Origin: a virus
Strand: one strand, 5' to 3'
DNA length: 39,426 nucleotides
Virus record (IMG/VR): IMGVR_UViG_3300009120_000003
Coordinates: 1 to 39,426 of that record
The notes below the pieces were generated by a model. The model was not told the origin of the DNA, ran no database searches, and saw nothing but the letters and a program-made list of their open reading frames with translations. Positions 8,908 through 32,791 of this stretch are shown here, in pieces; position 1 is the first letter of the stretch, and every line of letters starts with the position of its first letter. Made by a program: the position numbers and the translations under genes.

Positions 8908-9609
8908 TGTAACCCAACCTTTACCAATATTCACTTGACCATAATTGATGCCACCGCGTCTCTGGAGACTGGATAATTTAACCAATCTGAGATCCATAGG
9001 ACCACTTTTTTTACTAATAGAGTCTTGATAGGCATCCAGAGCTTTTGCGACTCCAGGTGGAACAGAATAATTAAATTCTGCACAAAGTCTGGCTGCAAGG
9101 TCATAGCGCAAATAGTTGATATAAAATCTATCCAGAGTTAATGATAAATCCTGATTAATGGTTACCTGAGCCAATCGAAATTGCCCCCAGATAGTTAATG
9201 GATATGCTTGATTTGGCTTGAAATATATATAGATATTAGCGCCACCAAAGCAACGTTCCATATGCCAGCTACCAGGTAAAGACCGAATATTGTCTGCACG
9301 AGAGCTGCCGAAGTATTCCCTTCTTGCTCTGTTTTCTGTCTGATAACGGACTGTATCTATGTAAAAAACAAATGTATCAATATTAATCAAATTTTCAATG
9401 AAATACTTTTCCTGACCAGTAATTGCATTGAAATTATATTCCTCATAATAGGGGATAAGACCGTTTTCCACAGTCTTATCCGCAATGAGATCATTTAGAA
9501 ACAATAAGCCATCGTTAGCCTGCTGACCTGATACAGTTTCAAAGCCACGGGATACAATTCCCGATTCATAATAGGCATTATTGATAAGCTGTAAAGTTGT
9601 GTAGGCCAT
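8905..9609 (-). CDS. Head-to-tail adaptor (P22 gp4-like tail accessory factor)
   Basis: A 234-residue protein with an AAGGA site before ATG 9609. The N-terminus (TTLQLINNAYYESGIV, GQQANDGLLFLNDLI) is the usual helical start of phage head-completion adaptors. A beta section with ITGQEKYFIEN and a C-terminal helical region (INYLRYDLAARLCAEF) follow. P22 gp4 binds the portal ring and extends the neck; this gene sits between coat and the gp10-like gene as gp4 does. It is longer than P22 gp4 (166 residues). The frame remains open past its amber stop (separate entry). Confidence 0.75.
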   Translation of the reverse strand: MAYTTLQLINNAYYESGIVSRGFETVSGQQANDGLLFLNDLIADKTVENGLIPYYEEYNFNAITGQEKYFIENLINIDTFVFYIDTVRYQTENRARREYFGSSRADNIRSLPGSWHMERCFGGANIYIYFKPNQAYPLTIWGQFRLAQVTINQDLSLTLDRFYINYLRYDLAARLCAEFNYSVPPGVAKALDAYQDSISKKSGPMDLRLVKLSSLQRRGGINYGQVNIGKGWVT

Positions 9610-9618
9610 GGCAGTTCC

Positions 9619-10434
9619 TTATTGAACGATTGTTACTGCTAACTGATCTAGATATGCCTGTACAGAAATTGCCACCGCAGAACCAGTGACCTTGTAGTCA
9701 ATTGCATCGGTTAAAGGTGCATCTGTTGGGCAAATCAGGTTACCTGTCTTGACTACAGCAGCTACAGAGCCAGACATAGTTGCGTAACCAAGAGTAGAAG
9801 TAGAAGTACCAGGAGCCAATACAAGAGTGTCATCAGCAGCCGTAGGAGTAAAAGCACAATACCAGTTAACCATGGTTGGTGTTGCAGCAGGCAAGCCAGC
9901 ACTGGCATCAACTGGGGCATAGGTAGCAGAAGAACCGGCTGTAACACTTGTAGCTATTGGAGCGTCATACCACATCCAGCGGTCTAGACCACAACCATCT
10001 TGACGGAAAGGCAACATTGCAGCAGAACCATCAGTTTTGACAAAACCTATACGGAAAGACATGTCGTATCCAGCTGGTAAAAGGGGAGCAGTAAGGTTGG
10101 CAGACATAATCGCCGAGCCTGGTTCATTGCCATAACTATCACCGATAGCATAAACAGCATAAAAGGTGTTGTTAGCTATAACGCCAGTGTCCAAGTGTCC
10201 AGCACCGGTTGTATCAGGATTGATAGTTACAATTCCGCTACCATCTGCAACAGGTTCAGTACCAGTTTGAGTTGCAGCGACATTTAATGGCAAGCCGACA
10301 CTGATATCATTTAGATTGGTAGAATTAGAACAACGGCCAGCAGAAACAGTAATGGTATCTCCACTAACCCATGCTAGTTTTAATCCATTGATATAGTACT
10401 GACGGGCATTTGTGACAGGTGTTGAAATGGTCAT
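9619..10434 (-). CDS. Putative head decoration or structural protein
   Basis: A 271-residue protein with an AAGGAT site ahead of ATG 10434. It is rich in Ala, Thr, Gly and Val with very few charged residues, which fits an all-beta capsid-surface or fibre-like protein. It has no recognised domain. Its place directly after the major coat gene is the usual place for decoration or head-stabilising proteins. Visible segments include NARQYYINGLKLAWVSGDTI at the N-terminus and a repeated Thr/Ala-rich C-terminal half. The role is inferred from position and composition only. Confidence 0.65.
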   Translation of the reverse strand: MTISTPVTNARQYYINGLKLAWVSGDTITVSAGRCSNSTNLNDISVGLPLNVAATQTGTEPVADGSGIVTINPDTTGAGHLDTGVIANNTFYAVYAIGDSYGNEPGSAIMSANLTAPLLPAGYDMSFRIGFVKTDGSAAMLPFRQDGCGLDRWMWYDAPIATSVTAGSSATYAPVDASAGLPAATPTMVNWYCAFTPTAADDTLVLAPGTSTSTLGYATMSGSVAAVVKTGNLICPTDAPLTDAIDYKVTGSAVAISVQAYLDQLAVTIVQ

Positions 10435-22949: not shown

Positions 22950-23522
22950 ATGACCAATCAGTCAATCGGATATGTTCGAGTATCAACGCGCGAGCAATCA
23001 ATCGGCCGCCAATCTGACGGCATGGGATCGCTCAAGCTTGATAAGATATTCACAGAGAAAGTCAGCGGTAAGAGCAAGGAGCGCCCAGAATTACAAGCTT
23101 GCATAGCTTATGCCCGCGAAGGAGATACACTATATATATATAGTATAGATCGACTTGCGCGAAGTCTGAGTGACCTGCAAAGCATTATCGCTGATTTAGT
23201 GACTAAAGGAGTAACTGTAAAGTTCATAAAGGAAGGCCAAACTTATTCCCGCGATAACTCCAATCCATTTAACAAAGTCTTGCTACAAGTCCTTGGAGCA
23301 TTTGCAGAGTTCGAAAGAAACATAATGCTAGAGCGACAAGCCGAAGGAATTGCACACGCTAAATCCCACGGTACCAAAACCGGTAAGCCCTTCGGAAAAC
23401 AACCATTAGACATGACAAGGCGGGTAGATGCTATTAACTATAGTAAGCAAGGTATGAACATATCCCAAATAGCAAAAGCAATGAATTTAAGCAGAGCAAG
23501 TATCTACAAACTATTAACCTAA
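22950..23522 (+). CDS. Serine resolvase
   Basis: A 190-residue small serine recombinase. The N-terminal catalytic domain starts GYVRVSTREQS with the nucleophile Ser12. It continues with the arginine-bearing motif YIYSIDRLARSLSDL and the helix-E region VLLQVLGAFAEFERNIMLER. The C-terminal helix-turn-helix is MNISQIAKAMNLSRASIYKL. The length is typical of Tn3-type resolvases and invertases. A GAGGAG site precedes ATG 22950. With the res-like DNA upstream it probably resolves genome multimers or dimers of a circular form; inversion is the alternative. It is too short to be a large serine integrase. Confidence 0.9.
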   Translation: MTNQSIGYVRVSTREQSIGRQSDGMGSLKLDKIFTEKVSGKSKERPELQACIAYAREGDTLYIYSIDRLARSLSDLQSIIADLVTKGVTVKFIKEGQTYSRDNSNPFNKVLLQVLGAFAEFERNIMLERQAEGIAHAKSHGTKTGKPFGKQPLDMTRRVDAINYSKQGMNISQIAKAMNLSRASIYKLLT

Positions 23523-26348: not shown

Positions 26349-27734
26349 TTAACTTTGGAAGAAGTCTTTGCTGTGGGCAGAAAAAACGGCTTTTTGCCCA
26401 TTAACTTGCTGCTGCATCGGCTTTTTAAACCATCCCTGAGAAACTTCGGCAAATGTTCCTTCATTAAAGGCTAAAATTAATTCAAATATTCCGCCAAATC
26501 TATTCTTACGGCATTTAATTACAAACTGATTTCGATAAACAGGATCATCTTGATAAAGTTCGGGTCTATCAACACCTAACCATAAAGTAGAGCTGAAGTA
26601 AGAACCACTTGAACCCGAGGCATCGCTAGGATAAGGGCATCTATCATCGGTGGCTCGTGCAGAAGGGGAACGATTAATTTGCGATAAAGCAATTACAATG
26701 CAGTCCAGCTCTATTGCAAGTCTAGCTAACTTGGAGGTGATTTCAGTTTGCTTTAAAGCATTAGATTCAAAACTACCTTTGGCATCAACTAAACCGAGAT
26801 AATCAACTACGATAACAGAAATTTTCCTATCCATAGCCTTCAATCGCGCGGTGGTTAGGATAAAATCAATATCAGCTGCCGATTTACATATTGATGCATC
26901 ATAAATTTGCATGGGCACTTGCATCACCTTTGTTACTGCTCTCATTCGCTCATCTTCATCCATTTTGTCGAATGGCTTACCTCCACATATTCCAACATGT
27001 CTCATCCAAATTTGTTGCGACTCCATTTCTAACGAAAAGAATAATGATTGAGTTTCAGGCTGCGCCCTGGCAATCGCATCAGCCAGGAAAAGCGCAAAAC
27101 CAGTTTTACCAACGCCAGCTCCAGCAGCGACAGTAATAAAACTTTTCGCCATAATGCCACCACCATTTACCGCATTAAGCTGATCGAAGGTGGTAGGGTG
27201 TACTAAATTGAGTGCCAGCTTGCCATCATAGAACAGTTCAGCTATTTCAATATTACTTATGCCATGTTTGGACTCTCGAAAACTTATTGCAGAAATTTCA
27301 TGAAGCGACTGGATTAAAATATCTTGAGCCTCTTCAGGGCTACTACACTCCTGAACACCGTTAATCATCTTGGTAGATAACTGGAGCTGTTTACGTAATC
27401 GCATCAGAACAATTAATCGTGTGACATAGTGTTCAAAACTGGATTCACCAGCATGCATTGAGCCGTAATTGCTGATAAGCCATAATATACGGTCATATAA
27501 TTCGTGATTGCCTTTAGGGATTAAGACCAGGATATCAACAAAGTGAAATGGTAATTGCTTTTTAAAACAATCCTGAATTAGCCGAAATACTTCTTTGTTG
27601 TCATGATCGTAAAAGCATTCGGATGTCAATTGAAGCATGGCCTTCTGTACGCGAGCATTAGTATGCTCAGCAAAATGCATAATAGTCTCAAGCACTTCAT
27701 TTTCTGTTTCTAGAGAATATTTAGGGGTACTCAT
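26349..27734 (-). CDS. Replicative DNA helicase (DnaB family)
   Basis: A 461-residue RecA-fold helicase. The N-terminal domain (residues 1-110) is helical as in DnaB. The motor domain has Walker A GAGVGKT (205-211), Walker B VIVVDYLGL (307-315) and SQINR (351-355), with the C-terminal VIKCRKNRFGG typical of the family. It unwinds the fork and is loaded by an initiator. The start overlaps the stop of the initiator gene by 4 bp, so the two are coupled, matching the O/P or initiator/helicase order of many phages. Confidence 0.92.
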   Translation of the reverse strand: MSTPKYSLETENEVLETIMHFAEHTNARVQKAMLQLTSECFYDHDNKEVFRLIQDCFKKQLPFHFVDILVLIPKGNHELYDRILWLISNYGSMHAGESSFEHYVTRLIVLMRLRKQLQLSTKMINGVQECSSPEEAQDILIQSLHEISAISFRESKHGISNIEIAELFYDGKLALNLVHPTTFDQLNAVNGGGIMAKSFITVAAGAGVGKTGFALFLADAIARAQPETQSLFFSLEMESQQIWMRHVGICGGKPFDKMDEDERMRAVTKVMQVPMQIYDASICKSAADIDFILTTARLKAMDRKISVIVVDYLGLVDAKGSFESNALKQTEITSKLARLAIELDCIVIALSQINRSPSARATDDRCPYPSDASGSSGSYFSSTLWLGVDRPELYQDDPVYRNQFVIKCRKNRFGGIFELILAFNEGTFAEVSQGWFKKPMQQQVNGQKAVFSAHSKDFFQS

Positions 27735-28552
27735 GAATATTGATCCTCAAGGAATTTAACAAAAGTATTCCAACGACAGAACGTTTCCATGTTGTTTTTC
27801 TTCTTGTTACCGTCCTTAGTAACATATTCGCTTAATGCAAATTTAGGGGATAACTGCTTTAGTCCACGCATATAGAGCCTAAATGCTTCAGGTGTTAAAG
27901 AATTTTTATTTGGGTCTGCTTCAGGCCAACGCTTAATGAGAGTACGTAGCACCTTATCAAGAGAGGTAGAGATTAAAGTTGGGTGAGGCTGAGGGTTGTC
28001 AGGAAACTCTTGACGGTAAACCTCAATCATTTGACGCATCAATACCTGAATGTCTTTTTTCCGAATACTTGTTGTTGCTACTACTGACGAATCGACAGAT
28101 TCGCTATTAGTAGTATTAGTATTAATACTACTTAATGAGTTAAGTTCTTCTGGTATAGCATTGCCGGAATCGGCAAGAGTCTTGCCAGAATCGGCAAGCC
28201 TGTTCAAAATCAAATCACGAAGCCCAGGATAGTACTGTAACCCTTTATCCGTAAGGGAATACCAGATTGTATTGTCATACTTTTTCTTGTTAAAAGTGTT
28301 CGTCACTATCAAATCTAGCTTAATGCAATTGGCAATAATCGTGCGAATATTCTTAGTTGACCAGAAGCCAAAATATTTGACGAAATCTTGAATTGTGTTG
28401 TAAGACCAATAACGGCCTTCATGAAAATTTCTTTCGGATGGGTCTTTCTTACTAGCGTTAAACTTAATCCATGTAGAGAGGTTAGCTATAAAGATACATA
28501 GGTTGGCGTCCTTGGTATCGTTCATTAACTGTTCATTGATAGTTAAATTCAT
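27731..28552 (-). CDS. Phage replication initiator (O-like, winged helix)
   Basis: A 273-residue protein from ATG 28552 (AAGGA 8 bases upstream). The N-terminal 110 residues contain a winged-helix pattern (IQDFVKYFGFWSTKNIRTII, then LIVTNTFNKKKYDNTIWYSL). A Ser/Thr-rich linker follows, and a C-terminal helical domain (QVLMRQMIEVYRQEFPDN). A DNA-binding N-terminus, linker and helicase-loading C-terminus directly before dnaB define phage initiators. The origin may lie inside the gene or in the tandem repeats just upstream. Confidence 0.75.
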   Translation of the reverse strand: MNLTINEQLMNDTKDANLCIFIANLSTWIKFNASKKDPSERNFHEGRYWSYNTIQDFVKYFGFWSTKNIRTIIANCIKLDLIVTNTFNKKKYDNTIWYSLTDKGLQYYPGLRDLILNRLADSGKTLADSGNAIPEELNSLSSINTNTTNSESVDSSVVATTSIRKKDIQVLMRQMIEVYRQEFPDNPQPHPTLISTSLDKVLRTLIKRWPEADPNKNSLTPEAFRLYMRGLKQLSPKFALSEYVTKDGNKKKNNMETFCRWNTFVKFLEDQYS

Positions 28553-28569
28553 GTTATAATTCCTTCGTG

Positions 28570-28593
28570 ATCTTAGTGTCAATCTTAGTGTCA
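28570..28593. repeat. Tandem 12-bp repeat upstream of the initiator
   Basis: Two exact adjacent copies of ATCTTAGTGTCA (28570-28581 and 28582-28593) lie right before the ribosome site of the replication initiator. They could be iteron-like initiator binding sites or an operator for this gene. Confidence 0.7.
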
Positions 28594-28676
28594 CGTTCGT
28601 TAAGGATGTAAACAACGCAAATCATGGCTGCCAAGCGAATCATTGCGTTTCCAGTTGTAGGGCAGGAAGCCCTTAT

Positions 28677-28796
28677 TTATCTGTCTATTTTTTCAAGTAA
28701 ATTTTCAGCTATCGTTAATCTTATAATTAATTCTTCATCAGTAATATCAGGGAAATCTTTAATAATTTTTGCGCGAATAAATTCCAGTATATCCAT
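28677..28796 (-). CDS. 39-residue acidic helical protein
   Basis: ATG 28796 (MDILEFIRAKIIKDFPDITD) has AAAGGA 9 bases upstream; an ATG three codons earlier abuts that site and is less likely. The stop is at 28677. The short protein is a pair of amphipathic helices (EELIIRLTIAENLLEKIDR). It lies between the NAMPT-like gene and the replication initiator in the same direction. An overlapping frame from 28885 is an alternative but looks less protein-like. Confidence 0.5.
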   Translation of the reverse strand: MDILEFIRAKIIKDFPDITDEELIIRLTIAENLLEKIDR

Positions 28797-28918
28797 GGTT
28801 GACATCCTTTGTCGTAAAATGAATTAATAAAAAATTGTATTTTGGCTATTGATTCTGTGGATTCGTGATGTAAAATCGTAGTCATGATGCTGTTCTTACT
28901 CCTAATGCTAAAAGTTCA

Positions 28919-29014: not shown

Positions 29015-30520
29015 TTACCTGTAAAGTTGTTCTAATTCAATTAACAAGTTGTTTCTTACTTCAAATAAATTAATGTTTTTTAATAATTTTCCATCTTCAA
29101 AAATGGTATATAAAAATCCTTTTTTTTCTTCTTCTTCACTACAATTATCCTTAAGATAAAATTTACCAGTGTATGCATTCATTCCTACATGCAGTAATCC
29201 ACGCGCAGATTTCTTGTTACCGTCGCCAGTAACAGGGTCTTTATAAATGGCAAAACGATTCCCTTTAAATACTGCACTGGTCGCTTTCATTGCAAATCCA
29301 AAAGTATCTCTGGTGACATATTGATAGGTATAACTACCAACACCGAAAAGAATATTGCTTGAAGCAAAGCCTTTTTCAGCCATAAGTTGTAATATTAAAG
29401 AGGCTCGGTCAACTGTAATCGCATCGCCATAAATTAGCCCTATCTTCGAATTTAACTCCTTAAAACCTGCATTGTTAATCCGTCCTCCGAAAGTTTCCCA
29501 GAGCAATTGCAATGCTCCCTTGTGGGCTGGGGTATCACGCATTGCGCACAGATCACCACATATGATGTCAACAGGATTCCCAGAATCAGGACGAATAACC
29601 ACTTTGCCTTGTCTTTCATTAATTTCCTTATATAAACTAGGTAGATAAATAGTTAAAACATGCCATAAATTATACGAATCGGATACTATTGAAACAATTC
29701 CGTCAGGATAAATCTCTGTAATTAACCGCTTAATCGTATTAAACTCACCCTCAGAACCACCACAACACATTACACTATGCTCTGTAGCTGGAACGCTGGT
29801 ACCGACAATACTGACGGTACCACTTGCATCATAATGCTGATTTAACATATCAATAGCACTTACGCAGTCTGTTCCTTTAAAACTTGTTAGATGAGCGGCA
29901 CCTGAAAGGGTAGCGTCATCCCATCCTGACATTCCACGGAAACTGAAATCATGTGACTGAAAATCTACAAAGCTCGGATCAGACCCTGTCAATTTTGCAT
30001 ATGTAGTTAATAATCTCTTATATTCAAAAGCAATTGTTGCCGATGTAAATGCTTTCCATAGACTAGAAGAAATAATTGTTTCAAGATAATTGGGAAGCCA
30101 GAAAAAATCAGGATGAGTATTGACGATAGTAAGCACAGGAACACCTATTGGCACACGATAGCCCTCTTCTATAGCCTTGATTCTTATAGGTAGATAACCC
30201 AGATCGTGAAGCTCTTCGAGATGCGTACTATCAAAATCCTTAATACCTAACGCATTTTCAATCAGGCATTTATATTCATTAATCACTATGTTTTTATTCT
30301 TGCCGAAAAATGCCGTGTTCCAGAGTTCTATCAAGTAATCTTTTATAAAAGGAACAATTCCAAAAACCACTATTTGATCATCAAAATCAGCTAATAGATT
30401 TTGATTTTTTTTTACATATCTTGGGGTGAAATTGCAGTAAATTTCAGTTATGCCTTCAGGATATTGTCTTCGGTGATCGACCTTATAAAAGTCAATGGCA
30501 AAAAGTGGATTATGTTTCAT
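29015..30520 (-). CDS. Nicotinamide phosphoribosyltransferase family (Namat-like)
   Basis: A 501-residue NAMPT-family enzyme. Motifs include the start PLFAIDFYKVDHRRQYPEG, SVPATEHSV (242-250, phosphohistidine-type His248), DSYN (281-284), RPDSGNP (310-316, phosphate/ribose site) and FGVGSYTYQ near the end. AGGAG precedes the ATG, which overlaps the PRPP-synthetase-like gene by 11 bp. NAMPT joins nicotinamide to PRPP to give NMN. In the phage NARP1 pathway the homologue Namat joins nicotinamide to ADP-ribose pyrophosphate to give NAD+ directly. The paired gene makes the second role the better guess; the substrate cannot be read from sequence. Confidence 0.9.
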   Translation of the reverse strand: MKHNPLFAIDFYKVDHRRQYPEGITEIYCNFTPRYVKKNQNLLADFDDQIVVFGIVPFIKDYLIELWNTAFFGKNKNIVINEYKCLIENALGIKDFDSTHLEELHDLGYLPIRIKAIEEGYRVPIGVPVLTIVNTHPDFFWLPNYLETIISSSLWKAFTSATIAFEYKRLLTTYAKLTGSDPSFVDFQSHDFSFRGMSGWDDATLSGAAHLTSFKGTDCVSAIDMLNQHYDASGTVSIVGTSVPATEHSVMCCGGSEGEFNTIKRLITEIYPDGIVSIVSDSYNLWHVLTIYLPSLYKEINERQGKVVIRPDSGNPVDIICGDLCAMRDTPAHKGALQLLWETFGGRINNAGFKELNSKIGLIYGDAITVDRASLILQLMAEKGFASSNILFGVGSYTYQYVTRDTFGFAMKATSAVFKGNRFAIYKDPVTGDGNKKSARGLLHVGMNAYTGKFYLKDNCSEEEEKKGFLYTIFEDGKLLKNINLFEVRNNLLIELEQLYR

Positions 30521-31346
30521 GATTATACTCCTGCAATATCAATAATTTATCTGTGGTTTTAAACTTTTCATCATGTATAACATGGTGACAAATAATTTGT
30601 TTAAAGTTCTGATAAAGTAGGTCTAAACCTTTACTGAATATTCCATGAGTAACATAAAGATAAAGATTTATTGCGCCGTTTTCCTTTAAAATTTTCGCAG
30701 CTTGATTAAATGTTGCTCCACCATCACAAATATCGTCTATAATAAGGATGTTATAATCTTCTACACATTGATTTTCTTCATAAAATGTCATATCAATAAT
30801 TCGACCAGTTTCAGGACATCTTTTCTTGCAAATTGTAACTGGATCTGACAGGTCAAAGTATTCACATAAATCATTAACTCTGAATAAAGATCCTTCATCC
30901 GGTGAACATATAAGAAGATTATTTATATCGAAATTTTTCAACACATTAAAACGATCAAAAATGCTTGTTGCAGTTATAAAATAAACGCTTGTTTTATGAA
31001 AATATTGGCGCGTTATAAATTCATTATGCACATCCCAAATCCTGATAACAGTTACCTTTAAATTATCAAGAAAGCCACAGATAACTTCAAGACTGTTAGC
31101 CTCCCCTTTTGAGCACACCCTATCTTGTCTGGCATAGGGTAGATACAATATATCAAGGTCAATATCCCATATACCGAGATTTTTAAGCGCATTAACCACA
31201 AGGCTTAAAAACATGATTTCAGAAGCATCAACAGGTTTCCAGATTAGGGTTGCGCGTTCCTTATCAATATCATGAGGTAATTTAACCTGTATCTCTCCAC
31301 CAGAAAAAATAAAATAATCAATCGGTTCGTTATTTAGTAGCAGCAT
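30510..31346 (-). CDS. PRPP-synthetase family enzyme (Adps-like)
   Basis: A 278-residue enzyme, shorter than bacterial Prs (about 315). Motifs are YLPYARQDR (68-76, ATP/catalytic region), DVHNEF (105-110, aligned to the DLH metal motif), CSPDEGS (147-153) and DDICDGGAT (204-212, phosphoribosyl loop). AAGGA precedes the ATG. Prs makes PRPP from ribose-5-phosphate; its phage homologue Adps pyrophosphorylates ADP-ribose. Being coupled to a NAMPT homologue fits either NMN salvage or the NARP1 pathway. With no NMN adenylyltransferase in the window, NARP1 is favoured. Confidence 0.85.
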   Translation of the reverse strand: MLLLNNEPIDYFIFSGGEIQVKLPHDIDKERATLIWKPVDASEIMFLSLVVNALKNLGIWDIDLDILYLPYARQDRVCSKGEANSLEVICGFLDNLKVTVIRIWDVHNEFITRQYFHKTSVYFITATSIFDRFNVLKNFDINNLLICSPDEGSLFRVNDLCEYFDLSDPVTICKKRCPETGRIIDMTFYEENQCVEDYNILIIDDICDGGATFNQAAKILKENGAINLYLYVTHGIFSKGLDLLYQNFKQIICHHVIHDEKFKTTDKLLILQEYNHET

Positions 31347-31358
31347 TTTCTACATTCC

Positions 31359-31577
31359 TTATTCCATGGTTTCATCGTCTTTTGTCCTTAATATTTTTAG
31401 AAGGTGATAGGCAAATCGGTCAATAACGACTAACCACATCAGTAAAATAATAGAAATTAGTATAATATCTGCCCAAAGTGGCATAGTATCATTCGATATA
31501 GCCCATGGAAGGATGGCACCCTGCATGAAAATGAAAACGGCAAGAAATACAATGACCCTGAAAATCATCATTCTCAT
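31359..31577 (-). CDS. Two-helix membrane protein paired with the SPFH gene
   Basis: A 72-residue protein with two hydrophobic helices (IFRVIVFLAVFIFMQGAILP and IILISIILLMWLVVI) and a charged tail (LRTKDDETME). The ATG overlaps the stop of the SPFH gene (ATGA), so they are co-translated. It lies 12 bp before the PRPP-synthetase-like gene. It is a possible membrane partner of the SPFH assembly. No known family; a holin-like role is less likely given the early operon. Confidence 0.7.
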   Translation of the reverse strand: MRMMIFRVIVFLAVFIFMQGAILPWAISNDTMPLWADIILISIILLMWLVVIDRFAYHLLKILRTKDDETME

Positions 31578-32464
31578 TTTTTTTCACCCATATTAATGAA
31601 AGGTAATGCGCCACCTGCATTTGTGGAAGGTAATTTACCGTCCCATTTAAGTATTGCTTCATATTGAACAAATTCTGGAGTAAGACTTTCAGCAAGAAGT
31701 TTATTTGCTTTAGCCTGTGATTCTGCATTTAATGTAATTTGTCTGGCATTTGCCTCTGCTTCAATAATTCGTCTTTCAGCAGCAGCTTTTGCATCAACAA
31801 TAGTCTTTTGAGCTTCTGCACGACTTGTCGCGACTTCATTTTCAACACGCATTGCGTTTTGAGAAGCTTGAATCTTTGTATTTATAGAATCCACAACATT
31901 GGCGGGTAACTGAAATGATCCTACAAGATAAATCTTATCCACTTCGATGCCATTCTCAGCTGCTTCCTTCTTTACAAGTTCGTTAACCTTTGTAATAAAC
32001 TTCTCTTTGCCAGAGCCGTAAATCGCCTCAACCGTCATAGTACTAGCAACTTCATTCATGGCATCACGTACTTGGTTATGAAGAAAGGTGTTGGTAATTT
32101 CTTCAATCCCTAGACGATACTTTTGAAAGACTTTTACCACATTGTCTGGCGCAATATTGTAGGTAATACCCGCAGAAGTGGTAATTGATAATCCTTCTGA
32201 AGTCTGCATTGTGATGGCTTGATCATCAGTCCATGAATAGTTCTGTAAGAAGGTCGGGAATAAATACATTTCCCGATTCCATCCCAAGTAATATCGACCT
32301 ACACCAGCCGACTGCTCAGACACTCCTTTCTCATTGCCATACAGGTTTACTATTACCCCTCTATATCCAGCAGGAACACGGGTTATATTAAAAAATAAAG
32401 ATAGACCAGCAATAAGGATAAATGCCAATGCTACGCCAGCTTGAATTTTATGTGTCATCTTCAT
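31574..32464 (-). CDS. SPFH / band-7 (prohibitin-stomatin) domain protein
   Basis: A 296-residue protein: one N-terminal membrane helix (residues about 8-27), then an SPFH domain (VPAGYRGVIVNLYGNEKG, ITTSAGITYNIAPDNVVKVF, NTFLHNQVRDAMNEVAST). A long Ala/Glu-rich coiled coil follows (EAQKTIVDAKAAAERRIIEA), with a Gly-rich end. SPFH proteins such as HflK/HflC and prohibitins form large membrane rings that organise lipids or regulate FtsH protease. AAGGAAG precedes the ATG. Second gene of the cro operon, so expressed early; it may protect the membrane or modulate host proteases. Confidence 0.88.
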   Translation of the reverse strand: MKMTHKIQAGVALAFILIAGLSLFFNITRVPAGYRGVIVNLYGNEKGVSEQSAGVGRYYLGWNREMYLFPTFLQNYSWTDDQAITMQTSEGLSITTSAGITYNIAPDNVVKVFQKYRLGIEEITNTFLHNQVRDAMNEVASTMTVEAIYGSGKEKFITKVNELVKKEAAENGIEVDKIYLVGSFQLPANVVDSINTKIQASQNAMRVENEVATSRAEAQKTIVDAKAAAERRIIEAEANARQITLNAESQAKANKLLAESLTPEFVQYEAILKWDGKLPSTNAGGALPFINMGEKK

Positions 32465-32487: not shown

Positions 32488-32715
32488 TTACTTCCTGTTT
32501 TCCAGTCGATGCATTTTTTTGAGGTTGTAAATAATAAAAGGATCTTCATCATCAGGCATTAATTCACCTTCAGTAATTACTGCAAGCTTGAATTGCTGTT
32601 TCCATGGGATATAGTCCTGTCTTTTCCACTTAGTCATGTTTTGTGGAGCTATCTTGAGTGCTAGACAAGCTTTATTCAGATTGCCGAACCATCTCTCAAC
32701 TTCTTCAACGGTCAT
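32488..32715 (-). CDS. Cro-like repressor (P22 Cro family)
   Basis: A 75-residue protein from ATG 32715 (MTVEEVERWFGNLNKACLAL, AGGAT 8 bases upstream); an in-frame start 63 bases earlier would run through the promoter. The helix-turn-helix is WFGNLNKACLALKIAPQNMT followed by KWKRQDYIPWKQQFKLAVI, the P22 Cro pattern (TKAAxALGVTxxAVxxW...IPxxxAxxL). It is the first gene of the leftward early operon and divergent from the exonuclease operon. It probably binds the CCTAG-centred operators in the gap and elsewhere. Confidence 0.85.
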   Translation of the reverse strand: MTVEEVERWFGNLNKACLALKIAPQNMTKWKRQDYIPWKQQFKLAVITEGELMPDDEDPFIIYNLKKMHRLENRK

Positions 32716-32742
32716 TTGCTCTATCCTGTAAATTTTTCCTAG

Positions 32743-32791
32743 ATTATAAAGTAAACCTAGTTTGAATTCCATATACACTTACGTATATAAT
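32743..32791. promoter_or_regulatory. Divergent promoter/operator region (cro / recombination operon)
   Basis: Rightward: TTGAAT (32762-32767), an 18-bp spacer, TATAAT (32786-32791), driving the exonuclease operon. Leftward: TATAAT (minus strand, 32748-32743) upstream of cro, with a poor -35. The operator GTAAACCTAGTTTGAA (32751-32766) overlaps the rightward -35, and a weaker CCTAGATT copy (32738-32745) covers the leftward -10. This is the lambda-like switch point. Confidence 0.75.

Follow-up and report, generated by a model that had tools for sequence, protein, structure and literature searches.

A gene pair very probably encoding the NAD+ reconstitution pathway NARP1 in a small P22-portal phage

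The Gene Pair and Its Predicted Chemistry

The window analyzed here, a virus sequence of 39,426 bases with a P22-like portal gene, carries two overlapping genes whose products resemble PRPP synthetase (Prs) and nicotinamide phosphoribosyltransferase (NAMPT). This raises the question whether the two enzymes rebuild NAD+ directly from ADP-ribose (ADPR) and nicotinamide, like Adps and Namat of the pathway NARP1, or whether they are an ordinary Prs and NAMPT. The upstream gene (30510–31346, minus strand) encodes a predicted Adps-like ADP-ribose pyrophosphokinase of 278 aa with a Prs fold, in which the Prs-type catalytic residues are kept and the R5P loop reads DDICDGGAT as opposed to DD-x-x-DTxGT. 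The downstream gene (29015–30520, minus strand) encodes a predicted Namat-like nicotinamide ADP-ribose transferase of 501 aa with the catalytic residues H248, R310 and D312 and the clamp residues Y397, Y401, T403 and D405, with K37 as a further, less certain one. An earlier note on this DNA had described two ORFs overlapping by 11 bp and quoted the motifs YARQDR, DDICDGGAT, EHSV and RPDSGNP; the overlap was located at 30510–30520 (minus strand) and all four motifs are present in the pair. Both the overlap and an AGGAG-like ribosome site of the Namat-like gene, which sits within the upstream gene, recur in relatives and suggest coupled translation. The family matches of the pair are much too strong to be accidental (Pfam NAPRTase, E=7e-38; PHROG 448, E=1e-184; PHROG 619, E=1.5e-62) and, like the folds, agree with the previous assignment to the PRPP synthetase and NAMPT families. 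Values for dN/dS of about 0.04–0.15, calculated for close relatives with unsaturated dS only, point to purifying selection on the pair.

There is a high probability that the pair constitutes an NARP1 module, and judging from the sequences it very probably rebuilds NAD+ from the fragments left by bacterial NAD+ destruction. Adps would move pyrophosphate from ATP onto ADP-ribose, yielding ADPR-PP, and Namat would then replace the pyrophosphate of ADPR-PP with nicotinamide, so that two steps would suffice to form NAD+, and neither NMN nor an adenylyltransferase would be required. The genes would be expressed early from a unit headed by a Cro-like gene and would refill NAD+ after host TIR, SIR2 or SEFIR defenses have cut it to ADPR and nicotinamide. 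Both enzymatic steps were established with the enzymes of SPbetaL1, Paenibacillus foliorum and mycobacteriophage DyoEdafos, and characterized phage NARP1 counters NADase defenses (PMC12774641, PMC13232231); for the window pair we infer the substrates and the anti-defense role from homology and residues, and early expression from gene position.

Clamp, Pocket and Fold of the Namat-like Protein

The published signature of the Namat selectivity-clamp helix (SCH) is GSX-phi-X-phi-X-phi-TRD, with aromatic residues at positions 3 and 7 contacting the adenine (PMC12774641). The sequence GSYTYQYVTRD of the window protein (aa 395–405, encoded at 29306–29338, minus strand) agrees with this Namat-type consensus, including both aromatics. 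Motifs of this type are nearly invariant among the relatives fetched and missing from four NAMPT-type phage proteins. In the clamp loop (SCL) of Namat, the residue stacking on adenine is Arg, or else Lys or Tyr with a fourth residue behind it that also stacks. The window protein, like Bas62, has Lys where this residue aligns, with Lys-Asn following it; its loop is longer, however, which makes the alignment uncertain there. The longer loop and Lys-Lys in place of the SPbetaL1 Arg weigh against the NARP1 reading.

The catalytic core is kept as H248, R310, D312, D218, F192 and Y12, corresponding to His, Arg306, Asp308, Asp215, Phe189 and Tyr15 of the NAMPT-like core of Namat, and a residue alignment revealed that every catalytic and nicotinamide residue contacted in the SPbetaL1 enzyme is conserved. 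At five diagnostic pocket positions (S190, A362, S391, F392 and Y396 in SPbetaL1; S193, A367, S396, Y397 and Y401 in the window) the protein is of the Namat type throughout, and human NAMPT and the phage NAMPTs deviate at all five. Among solved structures, those of SPbetaL1 Namat with nicotinamide and NAD+ (PDB 9W5X and 9W5W) gave the best sequence match (502 bits), followed by Haemophilus ducreyi NadV (450) and human NAMPT (225). The AlphaFold2 model of the protein (mean pLDDT 90) was ranked in the same order, with the Namat crystals first (TM 0.91–0.95, 48% identity), H. ducreyi NadV second and human NAMPT third.

In a tree of 68 proteins, 63 Namat-type rows were separated from five NAMPT references with 100% SH-aLRT and the window protein was found within a phage clade. 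H. ducreyi NadV, which was identified through a 100% match to plasmid pNAD1 (L198) and was crystallized with NMN (PDB 9KE8/9KEO), nests on a long branch inside the Namat side of this tree. It shares superclade and fold with the window protein and is 46% identical to it, but lacks the clamp aromatics (Q and R instead), carries G where the AMP phosphate is bound and deviates from the Namat type at four of the five pocket positions (A362, S391, F392 and Y396); no Adps gene is present on pNAD1. It appears to be a NAMPT derived within the Namat superclade by loss of the adenine clamp and of the Adps partner. Clade membership alone was therefore dropped as proof of a Namat, and assignment was based on residues and on the Adps partner. 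By clamp and pocket residues and by its partner, the window's NAMPT-fold protein is classified as Namat-like rather than as a NAMPT.

The Adps-like Protein Is Set Apart From Canonical Prs

The Adps-like protein scored barely above the cut-off of the broad family TIGR01251 (ribP_PPkin) and far under the cut-off of every Prs equivalog. Its AlphaFold2 model (mean pLDDT 92) has a Prs fold, with TM values of about 0.7–0.8 to PRPP synthetases, and the kinase residues R73, D75, H107, D150, K174, R176, D204 and D205 are invariant in an alignment of 26 rows. In a tree of 69 proteins, 60 Namat-linked rows, including the window protein, were separated from nine canonical Prs with 100% SH-aLRT. The phylogeny suggested in the earlier note thus placed the Prs-like protein outside canonical Prs, as predicted, and the expected separation of Namat from NadV did not come out cleanly, owing to the H. 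ducreyi enzyme.

Two positions distinguish both groups. The Thr of the R5P-phosphate loop (DTxGT) occurs in all nine canonical Prs and in none of the 153 Adps-type proteins, nearly all of which, including that of the window, have Gly; SPbetaL1 Adps likewise lacks this Thr (DDLSSFGGT). Conversely, F213 is present in 153 of 153 Adps-type proteins, and Prs mostly have Leu there. Because no structure of an Adps has been solved, we can only infer that the altered loop may admit ADP-ribose. Each of the eight bacterial genomes checked contained an Adps-type paralog alongside a full-length Prs, so the paralog is no stand-in for Prs. On the grounds of these sequence features, the Prs-fold protein is regarded as Adps-like rather than as a canonical Prs.

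Genomic Surroundings and Presence of the Pair in Relatives

The minus-strand genes follow the order Cro-like regulator (32488–32778, assigned by Pfam/PHROG), SPFH/Band 7 protein (phrog_200; 31574–32464), small hydrophobic membrane-like protein of 72 aa (31359–31577), Adps-like, Namat-like, replication initiator (27731–28615) and DnaB helicase (26349–27734). The Cro-like gene forms the head of the unit, and the two replication genes consistently border the insertion site on its downstream side. The SPFH gene lies in one transcription unit with the pair and varies independently of it; the small hydrophobic gene is co-directional, overlaps the SPFH gene by 4 bp, is accessory and variable in relatives, and gave no Pfam or PHROG family. 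Of the "early operon" proposed before, the co-directional run starting at a Cro-like gene was found, and "early" derives from its position. Promoter and terminator scans yielded no more matches than shuffled sequences. The original arguments for NARP1, i.e., the pairing, the small size of the Prs and the lack of an NMN adenylyltransferase (NMNAT), hold as well: the upstream gene is consistently paired, with an Adps-type gene adjoining the Namat gene in most relatives, and the record, which may be incomplete, contains no match to PF01467 (CTP_transf_like) at E up to 1. The NARP1 assignment itself gained support from the clamp motif, the pocket residues, the Namat crystals as best fold match and the position of the Prs-like protein apart from canonical Prs in tree and R5P loop.

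Relatives sharing the backbone (RecE-RecT-SSB, Cro, replication) were gathered by alignment (profile) queries with RecE and DnaB; a single-sequence query with DnaB retrieved none, and the structural genes had no useful match in the named-phage collection at the level of DNA. Among loci spanning the interval from Cro to the replication gene, the pair is present in eight (seven and the window) and absent from 15, at one site; the sampled contigs include near-copies, so these counts do not represent independent events. The interval usually measures 270–970 bp without the pair, or 1.3–1.5 kb with SPFH, and 2.6–4.8 kb with the pair. Presence and absence at one site are as expected of an accessory counter-defense module. 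The SPFH and small hydrophobic genes are partly independent, since relatives carry both, one or neither.

Two further genes of the window were recorded. A 42-aa ORF (MSTMDILEFIRAKIIKDFPDITDEEL...; 28677–28805, minus strand) lies between Namat and the replication initiator; as look-alikes occupy the same place in two relatives (L224, L232), a genuine small gene is probable. At 22950–23522 (plus strand) a serine resolvase/invertase gene (Pfam Resolvase) was found.

Comparison With Known Systems

Homologs of NAMPT/Namat were detected in 1,920 of 50,697 phage records. The NARP1 of the Bacillus phage SPbetaL1 has the gene order of the window, its genes likewise overlap, and its Namat agrees with that of the window in fold, catalytic residues and clamp motif; identities are 49.6% for Namat and 24% for Adps. 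It differs in the clamp loop, which is longer in the window and has Lys-Lys for Arg40, and in the Adps loop (DGGAT in the window, SFGGT in SPbetaL1). The NARP1-type pair found in Justusliebigvirus phages infecting E. coli, represented here by Bas62/JohannJBalmer and in the literature by Bas63, shares the Adps loop DDICDGG-x-T and, as far as the loop can be aligned, the Lys-type clamp loop, but is encoded in a 145-kb genome, with a longer Namat (577 aa) and 71 bp between the genes. Chromosomal loci of Alphaproteobacteria, Verrucomicrobiota and Bacteroidota encode a Namat 53–59% identical to that of the window, with the clamp motif and an Adps-type gene nearby; these loci, however, lie in bacterial assemblies, and in several Bacteroidota the genes are several kb apart. 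P. foliorum provides the published example of a chromosomal NARP1 (PMC12774641). The NARP2-type pairs of NAMPT and NMNAT in the large phages Mx1, LucasX and BUCT-ZZ01 have NAMPT chemistry and the role of refilling NAD+ in common with the window, but belong to a distant clade, possess a G-rich loop for the clamp motif and have NMNAT as partner instead of Adps.

The window pair is thus another example of the already described NARP1 counter-defense pathway and no new system. It extends NARP1 to a group of small (about 40 kb) phages with a P22-like portal, in which it forms an accessory cassette that has been acquired or lost at a single site. In addition, sequence rules could be deduced: Adps differ from Prs by loss of the R5P-loop Thr and gain of Phe213, and corresponding rules apply to Namat versus NAMPT, for which a rule based on clade only fails owing to H. 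ducreyi NadV. These rules help to annotate the many phage genes named "ribose-phosphate pyrophosphokinase" or "nicotinamide phosphoribosyltransferase," and the Adps rule offers a testable guess on an enzyme without solved structure.

Alternative Explanations

In ordinary NMN salvage, the first gene would supply PRPP, the second would form NMN from PRPP and nicotinamide, and a host NMN adenylyltransferase would complete NAD+. The pair has its folds and catalytic core in common with Prs and NAMPT, the Namat superclade includes H. ducreyi NadV, whose structure was solved with NMN, and on an Acinetobacter contig (L084) a gene annotated as NMNAT/ADPR-pyrophosphatase directly follows a homologous pair. 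Moreover, Namat retains activity with PRPP: SPbetaL1 Namat forms NMN from it in vitro with about half of the activity of human NAMPT (PMC12774641). A similar side activity is therefore likely for the window's Namat, and NMN salvage via host enzymes stays a rival. We nevertheless consider it very unlikely, as the window protein possesses clamp aromatics and pocket residues that are missing from H. ducreyi NadV and from phage and human NAMPTs, and the Prs-like protein stands outside canonical Prs without the invariant loop Thr. Additional PRPP synthesis would be of little gain to a phage whose hosts already carry Prs, and the record holds no NMNAT, in contrast to phages Mx1, LucasX and BUCT-ZZ01, where genes annotated as such lie near NAMPT. 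An ordinary Prs plus NAMPT was accordingly rejected as main reading on the clamp and loop residues and both trees, and NARP2 (NAMPT plus NMNAT) for want of an adenylyltransferase match in the record. NARP1 chemistry might also serve general recycling of NAD+ and ADPR during infection (replication, redox, ADPR clearing) instead of the evasion of NADase defenses. Pairs with these features are widespread on bacterial chromosomes and housekeeping roles were proposed for them (PMC12774641), yet a cassette present or absent at one site fits a conditional benefit depending on host defenses better than a core need, and phage NARP1, where characterized, acts against NADase defenses, which renders this explanation unlikely.

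The SPFH and small hydrophobic proteins could belong to the NAD+ module, e.g., as a membrane scaffold in a four-gene system. All four genes are tightly spaced on the same strand, and SPFH occurs in eight of 14 relatives with the pair and two of 15 lacking it (one-sided Fisher test, p about 0.02, uncorrected for relatedness). However, the pair is found without SPFH in L004, L007, L009 and L012 and SPFH without the pair in L232 and L240, and SPFH genes are spread over 660 diverse phage records, so that such a system is highly improbable; with its independent variation and its commonness in phages, SPFH was rejected as a required part of the main reading. Equally speculative, and hardly to be expected, is the idea that the interval from cro to the replication genes is a swappable counter-defense site in which SPFH, the small hydrophobic protein, Adps and Namat act as one unit, which might for instance tether NAD+ synthesis to the membrane or block a membrane effector belonging to the same defenses. 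Myxococcus phage Mx1 (L087, 3986–7288) has NAMPT and NMNAT on either side of an SPFH gene that shares 46% identity with that of the window, an arrangement that speaks for the four-gene system.

Unusual Relatives

Several relatives deviate in architecture. One Namat gene (818 aa; L051) contains a 317-aa in-frame insert (8937–9887) exactly within the catalytic IRPD|SG. The insert has Cys as its first residue and Gly-Asn as its last two, followed by Ser, and includes the intein-like blocks CYSEDT and LLVTPNH and a LAGLIDADG-like stretch; it is probably an intein, with weak library matches (Hint_2, E=0.034; AceL intein, E=0.13). Another Namat (L050, 7448–9343) carries a C-terminal MazG-like domain (Pfam PF12643, E=6e-7), and an equally long ORF is present in its look-alike L052. 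In the phage family phrog_12872 (547 positions), the first half matches Adps and the second half Namat, which suggests natural Adps-Namat fusions. A NAMPT homolog from Chitinophaga (L132, 8001–9524) possesses the full Namat clamp and lies near an Adps-type gene. For the enzyme of C. pinensis, which industry uses to produce NMN, a millimolar Km is reported (PMC11681623), and by analogy with this homolog it may really be a Namat.
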